Assembly: GCA_027038965.1 (NCBI GenBank)
Contig: JALWFG010000019.1
Span: 1-38,658, forward strand
From: Candidatus Desulfofervidaceae bacterium
GTDB lineage: Bacteria > Desulfobacterota > Desulfofervidia > Desulfofervidales > Desulfofervidaceae
Length of the DNA stretch: 38,658 nucleotides
Direction: 5' to 3'
Part shown: positions 35,568 to 38,417 of the stretch, piece after piece
Position numbering within the stretch: position 1 is the stretch's first letter
Layout: every line of letters begins with the position of its first letter
Made by a program: the position numbers and the translations under genes
Notes under the pieces: generated by a model
What the model saw: the letters and a program-made list of their open reading frames with translations, nothing else
What the model was told of the DNA's origin: nothing
Databases searched by the model: none

Positions 35568-36227
35568 ATGGCATTATACAAAGATAGAAAAGAAGCAGGT
35601 GCGCTATTAGCTGAGACCTTGGGCAATTATACCCTTGAAGACCCGATTGTGTTGGCTATTCCTAACGGGGGTGTAATCATAGGCAAACAAATTGCGAACC
35701 GTTTAGGATGTCCTTTAAAGCTTGTAGTGGTAAAAAAAATTCCTATTCCCGATAACCCTGAAGCGGGTTTTGGTTCAGTGACAAGTTCAGGCATTACTAT
35801 TTTGAACTCTTCAATGTTGCCCAATTTAAATTTAACGCCCCAGCAAATCAGGCAATTAGCTAAGCAAACCTTGGAACGTATAAAGGAAAGGATGCAGGCT
35901 TACGGAATTGATGGCGATTATAGCGATATTCAAGGCAAAACTGCCATTTTGGTAGATGATGGGTTGGCCTCCGGCATTACTATGGAAGCAGCCTTGAGGA
36001 CGATAAAGCCTTTTAACCCCAAACGAATCATTATAGCTGTTCCTACCGCTTCAACTCAAGCCTTTGAAAAACTGGGATATGAAGTAGATGCAATTATTTG
36101 TCCGGACATAAAATACAAACTTCCATTTGCGGTTGCCGAGGCCTATGACAATTGGTATGATGTGAAGGATGAAAAGGTAAAACAAATTTTGGCACTTGCA
36201 AAGGGGTTTGATTTTGGGCTAAAATAA
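35568..36227 (+). CDS. Predicted phosphoribosyltransferase, COG1926 type
   Basis: 219 residues. LYKDRKEAGALLAETL at the start, AIPNGGVIIGKQIA, then the PRPP-binding loop ILVDDGLASGITM (D130, D131) typical of type I phosphoribosyltransferases. The opening motif matches the family often annotated as predicted phosphoribosyltransferase, whose substrate is unknown. The usual LPRGGV appears here as IPNGGV. AAAGGA precedes ATG. A 28-nt AT-rich spacer separates it from the PilZ gene. Confidence 0.85.
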   Translation: MALYKDRKEAGALLAETLGNYTLEDPIVLAIPNGGVIIGKQIANRLGCPLKLVVVKKIPIPDNPEAGFGSVTSSGITILNSSMLPNLNLTPQQIRQLAKQTLERIKERMQAYGIDGDYSDIQGKTAILVDDGLASGITMEAALRTIKPFNPKRIIIAVPTASTQAFEKLGYEVDAIICPDIKYKLPFAVAEAYDNWYDVKDEKVKQILALAKGFDFGLK

Positions 36228-36263
36228 GACTGTTCTTAGAATAAAAGAGAATGGAGGAAGGCA

Positions 36264-36401
36264 ATGAGTTTCAAATCCATCTTTTTTCTGATTATCTTTT
36301 GCTGGTTCATTTTAATTGCCTTTGGGGCATTTAAACCTGACAAGGTGGTGGATTTTAACGCCACTTTGGATTGGCCTACTACGGCCCAAATTGATAGTTA
36401 G
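36264..36401 (+). CDS. 45-residue membrane microprotein, unknown function
   Basis: ATG at 36264 with GGAGGAAGG directly upstream (36253-36261) opens a 45-codon frame ending TAG at 36399-36401. The product has a hydrophobic helix at about residues 5-22 (IFFLIIFCWFILIAFGAF) followed by a polar tail FKPDKVVDFNATLDWPTTAQ. It would be a single-span membrane protein or a secreted peptide with an uncleaved anchor. I do not recognise it. It fits neatly between its neighbours (36-nt and 9-nt gaps), which supports a real gene. Confidence 0.65.
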   Translation: MSFKSIFFLIIFCWFILIAFGAFKPDKVVDFNATLDWPTTAQIDS

Positions 36402-36410
36402 GGAAGCAAG

Positions 36411-36935
36411 ATGTCTCCTAAAAAGGTAGTTATTTTGGTAGCCGATTTATATCAAGACCTTGAGGTTTGGTATCCATGTTTACGGCTTAAAGAGGCCGGT
36501 CATGAGTCCCTAATTGCAGGGCCAGAAGCGGAAGTGGTGTACAAGAGTAAACATGGTTATCCTATTAAATCAGAGATTGCTATTAAAGAAGTAAATGTAG
36601 ACCGGATTGATGGTGTAATTATTCCTGGGGGATATGCGCCAGATATCTTGAGGCGGTATCCAGAGTCCATTAAATTGGTTAAGGATGTCTATGAAAAGGG
36701 CAAAATCATAGCCGCTATTTGCCATGGAGGCTGGCTTTTGGCCTCAGCTAGGATTATTGCTGGCAGGACTGTAACTAGTTTTTTTGCCATTAAAGACGAC
36801 TTGGAAAATGCCGGGGCGAACTATGTGGACTCAGAAGTCGTTGTGGATGGTAATATCATTACCTCACGAATGCCAGAGGATTTACCTCTTTTTATGACTG
36901 AGATTTTGAGGGCCTTGCAGGAATACAAAGGTTAA
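36411..36935 (+). CDS. DJ-1/PfpI family protein
   Basis: 174 residues, single class I glutamine-amidotransferase-like domain. The nucleophile elbow is AAICHGGWLLASA with C104 and H105; E18 in DLEVWYP is the matching acidic residue; GVIIPGGYAPD is typical of PfpI/YhbO. Members are described as intracellular proteases or as glycation-repair/glyoxalase-like enzymes, and the sequence cannot decide between these. It follows the microprotein gene by 9 nt. Confidence 0.92.
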   Translation: MSPKKVVILVADLYQDLEVWYPCLRLKEAGHESLIAGPEAEVVYKSKHGYPIKSEIAIKEVNVDRIDGVIIPGGYAPDILRRYPESIKLVKDVYEKGKIIAAICHGGWLLASARIIAGRTVTSFFAIKDDLENAGANYVDSEVVVDGNIITSRMPEDLPLFMTEILRALQEYKG

Positions 36936-36967: not shown

Positions 36968-37726
36968 ATGCCGCAGGTAAAACCGAAAGTTTCTCTTCTT
37001 TCTATGACCCCAAATGCCCTGGCTGTGATTTATGCCGCCTGCAAGCAGTGTTATTCAGAGGGATATGCAGATGCCTTATTTGAAAAGGCGGTAAATAGCG
37101 AGATTCCCACAGAGAGGCAAGAAGCCCTTGTGAGAAGGGTTTTGGCTTCAGGGCACGAAAGTGTTTGCGAGCATGTCTCCTTCACATTCAGTATCTCTGG
37201 CATTTCGAGGGCTTGCAGTCATCAACTGGTCAGGCATCGTATTGCTTCTTATTCCCAGCAGAGCCAGCGTTATGTGAAAATGGAAGATTTTAACTACATT
37301 GTACCTCCCACCATTGAAGAGAGGCCGCACATTAAAAAGATATATGAAGGGATTATGAAACATATCCAGGAGGCCTACAATCGCATCGTGGCTGAACTGG
37401 AAAAAGAAGGCCTTAAAGGCGAAAAGGCCCATCAGGATGCCCGTTTTGTCTTACCAAATGCTTGTGAAACCAGAATTGTAGTGACCATGAATTGTCGGAG
37501 TTTGCTTAATTTCTTTTCTTTGAGGTGCTGTGAGCGGGCCCAATGGGAAATCAGAGAGGTGGCCTGGCAGATGCTTAAAATTTGTAAAGAAAGACTGCCG
37601 TGTGTGTTTGAAAATGCAGGGCCAAAGTGTGAGAGACTTGGATACTGCCCGGAGATAAAAGGCTGCGGCAGAAAACCACCCAAAGAAGTGTTTTTTAAAA
37701 GTGTGGGGAAAACTCAAAATAATTGA
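36968..37726 (+). CDS. thyX: Flavin-dependent thymidylate synthase ThyX
   Basis: 252 residues. The ThyX motif RHRx7S is R89-H90-R91 to S99, within RHRIASYSQQSQRYV. ESVCEHVSFTFSISG and NFFSLRCCERAQWEIREVA are further signatures. It makes dTMP from dUMP with FAD, NADPH and methylenetetrahydrofolate and replaces ThyA. The C-terminal tail has C206, C212, C221, C227 and C233, possibly a metal site. Only a weak SD precedes ATG. The DNA-precursor role fits with CTP synthase nearby. Confidence 0.96.
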   Translation: MPQVKPKVSLLSMTPNALAVIYAACKQCYSEGYADALFEKAVNSEIPTERQEALVRRVLASGHESVCEHVSFTFSISGISRACSHQLVRHRIASYSQQSQRYVKMEDFNYIVPPTIEERPHIKKIYEGIMKHIQEAYNRIVAELEKEGLKGEKAHQDARFVLPNACETRIVVTMNCRSLLNFFSLRCCERAQWEIREVAWQMLKICKERLPCVFENAGPKCERLGYCPEIKGCGRKPPKEVFFKSVGKTQNN

Positions 37727-37760: not shown

Positions 37761-38417
37761 ATGAGAGAAAGAGACATATTTGCCATCGCTCGTGAGCGAA
37801 TGGTAAAGGAACAGATTGAGGCTCGAGGCATCCGAGACCCTCGCGTGCTTGAGGCAATGAGAAAGATCCCCCGACATCTCTTTGTGGATGAGGCCCTTAT
37901 ATCTCAGGCCTATAATGATTATCCCTTACCGATAGGGGAGGGCCAAACCATTTCTCAACCTTACATTGTGGCCTTAATGACCTCTGCTTTGGAATTAAAA
38001 GGAGATGAAAAGGTTTTAGAAATAGGAACTGGGTCTGGATACCAGACTGCCATTTTAGCAGAGCTTGCCAAAAGTGTATTCACTGTAGAACGAATGGAAG
38101 GCCTTATGTTGAGGGCCAGAAAAATACTTGACCGTTTAGGATATTTTAACGTAGCTTATAGGGTGGGAGATGGGACCTTAGGATGGCCTGAAATGGCGCC
38201 TTTTCAAGGGATTATTGTCACTGCTGCCGCCCCTCAAATTCCTCCTCCGTACCTAGAACAACTGGATGTGGGCGGAAGGCTTATAATGCCTATTGGTGAC
38301 AAATTGGCTCAGGTGTTGTATAAAATAGTGAAACTTCCAGACGGAAGTCTTGAGAAAATAGACTTAGGCGGATGTCGTTTTGTTCCGTTAGTGGGTGCTT
38401 ATGGTTGGCCAGAATAA
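37761..38417 (+). CDS. pcm: Protein-L-isoaspartate O-methyltransferase
   Basis: 218 residues. The pre-motif [18 protein letters not shown]-binding motif [12 protein letters not shown] (from E87) and [16 protein letters not shown] are those of PCMT. It methylates isoaspartyl residues in ageing proteins so that they can revert to aspartate. GTAGGAG precedes ATG. Its last 17 nt overlap the start of the next gene. Confidence 0.97.

Follow-up and report, generated by a model that had tools for sequence, protein, structure and literature searches.

A conserved gene for a predicted single-helix membrane microprotein directly ahead of a DJ-1/PfpI gene in Candidatus Desulfofervidaceae

The window analyzed here is the whole stretch of 38,658 nucleotides from contig JALWFG010000019.1 of a Candidatus Desulfofervidaceae bacterium, a small family of thermophiles placed in Thermodesulfobacteriota. 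The genome, referred to as G000, comprises 2.19 Mb in 21 contigs. The locus of interest is a small open reading frame followed by a series of enzyme genes; elsewhere the window carries a large cluster of genes for ribosomal proteins and rpoBC. A tRNA at positions 289-362 was the only Rfam match across the whole window. Beyond the window, on the G000 contig (L024:10812-12000), we noticed by eye a helicase-like frame resembling the start of reverse gyrase, an enzyme expected of a thermophile.

The frame is an ATG frame of 45 codons with its TAG stop at 36399-36401, located between genes of the phosphoribosyltransferase and DJ-1/PfpI families (Table 1). This is exactly where the initial annotation had placed it, with its good Shine-Dalgarno sequence and its distance of 9 nt (36402-36410) to the DJ-1/PfpI start codon, and Pfam identified both neighboring families as proposed. 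The Shine-Dalgarno sequence of the DJ-1 gene abuts the stop codon of the small frame. The DJ-1 protein belongs to the PfpI/YhbO subfamily according to TIGR01382. A gene for a VTT-domain protein was identified by Pfam further downstream and a PilZ gene further upstream. The promoter-like site has little weight as evidence: four such sites were found compared to 3.0 in shuffled sequence, and by the same rule a comparable site was found in G001 and none in G003 or G004.

Table 1. Features of the microprotein locus, in window coordinates.
Feature	Position	Strand	Basis
Phosphoribosyltransferase-domain gene, upstream neighbor	35568..36227	+	Pfam PF00156 1e-19
Weak promoter-like site TTGCAA-18-TAAAAT	36196..36225	+	9/12 matches to promoter rule
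Shine-Dalgarno GGAGG, 6 nt 5' of ATG	36253..36257	+	sequence; GGAGG also ahead of other three homologs
45-aa membrane microprotein gene, ATG..TAG	36264..36401	+	frame, homologs, substitution pattern
Predicted transmembrane helix, codons 5-23	36276..36332	+	Kyte-Doolittle; AlphaFold
Juxtamembrane motif G-A-F-x-x-D-x-V-V-D-x-x-A, codons 21-33	36324..36362	+	invariant columns, 4/4 homologs
DJ-1/PfpI gene, PfpI subfamily, directly downstream	36411..36935	+	Pfam PF01965 4e-52; TIGR01382 1e-51
ThyX-type thymidylate synthase gene, constant downstream neighbor	36968..37726	+	Pfam PF02511 1e-72
Protein-L-isoaspartate O-methyltransferase (PCMT) gene	37761..38417	+	Pfam PF01135 3e-63

A tblastn search of related genomes with the 45-aa protein, the check proposed with the initial annotation, covered 39 genomes including G000 itself. 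Homologs were detected in three of the four other genomes of the family, G001 (64% identity, 6e-16), G004 (48%, 6e-12) and G003 (42%, 7e-5), all at the syntenic place and with frame and Shine-Dalgarno site intact; the carriers span three genera. Five further matches (E 0.04-0.36) were inside frames of 73-291 aa. A profile of the four sequences found the same four genomes convincing, which is four of the five in the family (G000 included) and four of the six in the class. Weak family matches at E 0.04-0.6 in this search were set aside as chance, and so were the two borderline matches that joined the same four genomes when the profile was searched against 395 genomes of the phylum, G230 (E 0.0045) and G195 (E 0.0079); these two lie inside long frames of 480 and 491 aa. 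Only one copy of the microprotein gene is convincing, and its position in the gene cluster is fixed.

A scan of genome contigs gave two loci, both from Desulfofervidaceae, while none of 90 pattern stretches from a scan of viral contigs was confirmed as a relative. No family in Pfam or NCBIfam matched the microprotein above cut-off, PHROGs gave no match below E 0.05 (best E 0.066), and no relative was found among PDB sequences (best E 0.42). There is no convincing relative outside Desulfofervidaceae in the genomes and libraries searched, where each species is represented by one genome and short distant relatives can be missed. Searches of the open-licence literature found nothing on this microprotein or on Desulfofervidus small proteins.

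In all four carriers the microprotein frame ends 4-9 nt before the DJ-1 gene and is followed by DJ-1, ThyX, PCMT and VTT-domain genes in the same order. The upstream neighbor varies, yet the adjacency to DJ-1 persists throughout: two carriers (G000, G001) have a phosphoribosyltransferase gene there, G004 has one for a LonB-like protease and G003 a PilZ gene. The phosphoribosyltransferase gene is a patchy member of the cluster as well, with a match in only three of the six class genomes (G000, G001, G004) and none in G002, G003 or G005. LonB/LonC-like protease genes (AAA_32, LonB LID, Lon_C) were found at L023:3585-6002 and L021:3671-6055. In G004 such a LonB-like gene lies directly 5' of the pair of microprotein and DJ-1 genes, in G002 directly 5' of DJ-1 itself, and no full-length copy was found in G000, G001, G003 or G005. 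The LonB-like protease was therefore rejected as the true partner of the microprotein; it adjoins the microprotein in one carrier only and is not required.

Alignments of the frame in G000, G001 and G004 are of identical length and gap-free over all 45 codons, and each homolog keeps the start, the stop and the GGAGG site. Differences at codon positions 1/2/3 were 17/6/26 for G000-G001, 20/8/24 for G000-G004 and 13/8/22 for G001-G004, with 20-22/15-19/27-30 in the pairs with G003. Nei-Gojobori proportions over the six pairs were pN 0.21-0.49 versus pS 0.66-0.92; these cannot be turned into a reliable dN/dS ratio because synonymous sites are saturated, with infinite dS in four of the six pairs. 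In all six pairs amino-acid identity was above that obtained when the same substitutions were scattered at random over the same codons, although these pairs are not independent and finding homologs by protein similarity somewhat favors this outcome. None of 2000 shuffles reached the observed identity in three pairs, and 0.7% (G000-G004), 0.3% (G001-G003) and 0.6% (G004-G003) were as high in the others. That the homologs have position, start, stop and ribosome site in common is independent of ascertainment by protein similarity. The other forward frames contain 2-6 stops in each homolog. The 60 nt upstream also align at 48-60%, with gaps, and raw DNA identity did not separate frame from flank in pairs including the far diverged G003.

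Within this sample of four sequences, neither a broken frame nor free divergence was seen among the carriers, while G002 lacks the gene entirely. Given the syntenic homologs, intact frames, good ribosome-binding sites and third-position-biased changes, the frame is a real, very small gene for a predicted one-helix membrane peptide, and the substitution pattern supports selection at the protein level. The earlier proposal of an undescribed membrane microprotein gene is supported by this conservation and selection, by the predicted helix and by the lack of a family match in the libraries searched.

One N-terminal membrane-spanning helix, as the initial annotation had suggested, is predicted both from hydrophobicity and by AlphaFold. 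Residues 5-23 form the most hydrophobic 19-residue stretch, uncharged and with a mean Kyte-Doolittle value of 2.68; across the four homologs, the best 19-residue stretch averages 2.4-2.8. The AlphaFold model, calculated from a four-row alignment and with a mean pLDDT of only 68, places a helix at residues 3-22 (pLDDT about 85-87 in blocks 1-20) and leaves the tail mostly disordered (pLDDT 49-56), with a second helix of just five residues at low confidence. M1, K4, G21, A22, F23, D26, V28, V29, D30 and A33 are invariant in all four homologs. The polar tail KPDKVVDFNATLDWPTTAQ had been described as conserved-looking but is conserved only in part: what the homologs share is the juxtamembrane motif rather than the entire tail, and LDWP is kept in three homologs only and is lost in G003 along with what follows. 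The tail is acidic in three of the four. Positive residues behind the helix outnumber those in front of it in G000, G004 and G003 and are fewer in G001, while net charge is more positive ahead of the helix in G000, G001 and G004 and equal in G003 before the amino terminus is added. Since the positive-residue count and the net-charge rule disagree, membrane orientation as judged from charges is ambiguous.

DJ-1 matches were detected in 97 of the 395 phylum genomes, and the best 30 loci, five from the family and 25 from other families, were compared, with DJ-1 located in all 30. In G002 (one contig) the DJ-1 gene starts within 8 bases of the LonB-like stop, a gap too short to hold the microprotein, and the profile did not find it elsewhere in that genome either (best E 0.28). 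The DJ-1 protein of G002 shares 71-80% identity with those of the carriers, the values for G003 and G004 being 79-80%. A DJ-1 tree, for which 29 of the 30 rows were used (the aligned piece of L039 held a stop and was left out), shows G002 as the sister of the four carriers with support of 96/91, whereas in an unrooted tree of four genes G002 groups with G003 (0.98). Because the two trees disagree, the pattern can be either one gain of the gene or one loss in G002.

The small gene had also been suggested to encode a partner or anchor of the DJ-1/PfpI protein. The helix would then sit in the membrane, and a cytoplasmic tail would hold DJ-1/PfpI there for methylglyoxal detoxification or repair of glycated proteins. 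The constant adjacency under three different upstream neighbors puts DJ-1/PfpI first among the candidates. The larger number of positive residues after the helix in three homologs would allow a cytoplasmic tail. However, the net charge difference favors a periplasmic tail in three homologs and vanishes in G003, the linkage of ThyX and PCMT is equally constant, DJ-1 occurs without the microprotein at the same place in G002, and no similar ORF is in front of DJ-1 at any of the 25 other-family loci among the best 30. The adjacency part of this suggestion stood, while DJ-1 is not always accompanied by the microprotein, and we consider such anchoring possible but on balance unlikely. Short hydrophobic ORFs precede DJ-1 at two of the 25 loci, L053 (50 nt) and L055 (38 nt), and neither is alike. 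The one at L053, from another family of the phylum, is a frame of 87 aa about 50 nt before DJ-1/PfpI; its start resembles a signal sequence and it contains CxxCH, as in cytochrome c. PfpI of P. aeruginosa and YhbO of E. coli have been described as dimeric methylglyoxalases, and the passages of their description considered here mention no membrane partner (PMC11987610). Open-licence literature searches found no membrane partner of PfpI and nothing on PfpI in Thermodesulfobacteriota. A more specific version, in which a lineage-specific adaptor would use G-A-F-x-x-D-x-V-V-D-x-x-A to hold a methylglyoxalase/deglycase of the PfpI type at the inner membrane, is a rather doubtful proposal; if true, we would know of no earlier case of a bacterial DJ-1/PfpI protein with a dedicated partner in the membrane.

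Other readings place less in the peptide or give it another fate. Translation of a leader frame could couple ribosomes onto the DJ-1 start, with the peptide itself being secondary, and the 4-9 nt gaps in all four carriers together with the DJ-1 Shine-Dalgarno sequence abutting the stop would fit this. Yet amino-acid conservation in helix and motif exceeds random placement of substitutions, coupling would not need a conserved motif, and DJ-1 in G002 directly follows another gene, making the leader improbable. The helix might instead serve as a signal sequence, with cleavage around residues 21-22, where small residues (G21-A22) follow the hydrophobic run in all four homologs, to release a tail of about 23 residues. 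Such a secreted peptide is quite improbable, as no convincing small-x-small site is common to the four homologs, the helix is predicted to continue through residue 22 and just one lysine is ahead of it. Size and single helix resemble those of small hydrophobic toxins of a type I-like kind; against this, the Rfam search of the window turned up no antisense RNA of a known family (lineage-specific antisense RNAs would escape it), the gene is a single convincing copy at a fixed cluster place and the PHROG match is poor, and a toxin appears very improbable. Finally, several frames of similar length arise by chance in the same region, but syntenic conservation in three genera and a codon-like substitution pattern led us to reject a chance open frame, the probability of which is close to negligible.

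The explanation we regard as probable is that of a genuine, selected, family-specific single-pass membrane microprotein whose motif docks a partner in an accessory or modulator role. Its translation would immediately precede that of the PfpI-type gene within a single cluster of microprotein, DJ-1/PfpI, ThyX, PCMT and VTT-protein genes, and its one helix would sit in the inner membrane. The motif G-A-F-x-x-D-x-V-V-D-x-x-A would be the working part that docks one partner protein, so that the peptide would assist or modulate a larger partner at the membrane. This partner may be encoded elsewhere: a membrane protein from another part of the genome is no less likely a candidate than DJ-1. The G002 lineage manages without the gene. 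Desulfofervidaceae are syntrophic partners of methane- and alkane-oxidizing archaea, and the family gains here a well-supported orphan microprotein family, along with a conserved short motif and a specific pairing to test. If DJ-1/PfpI is bound, a carbonyl-damage enzyme would be placed at the membrane; if not, the peptide is an ordinary small membrane protein of a single lineage.

Known systems offer several points of comparison. Similarity to DJ-1/PfpI systems of the PfpI/YhbO type lies in the neighbor of the microprotein, which is a clear PfpI-subfamily protein. As in TatA, an N-terminal helix is followed by FG-like residues. TatA has a long amphipathic helix after its membrane helix, whereas the tail of the microprotein is short, acidic in most homologs, predicted to be mostly disordered and devoid of a long amphipathic helix; the TatA profile NF002402 matched one of the four homologs at E 0.16, with 11.6 bits compared to a cut-off of 71. 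Small single-pass membrane modulators such as CydX, AcrZ, KdpF, MgtS, SgrT and the like share with the microprotein a length below 50 residues, one helix, a short polar end and an own ribosome-binding site, although the microprotein matches no curated family searched and is located beside DJ-1/PfpI, ThyX and PCMT instead of a membrane complex. It is a short coding gene as in these systems, with its single helix given by prediction. The microprotein may bind and modulate a larger partner, and we interpret it as an orphan specific to this lineage that belongs to a widespread type, small accessory peptides crossing the membrane once.
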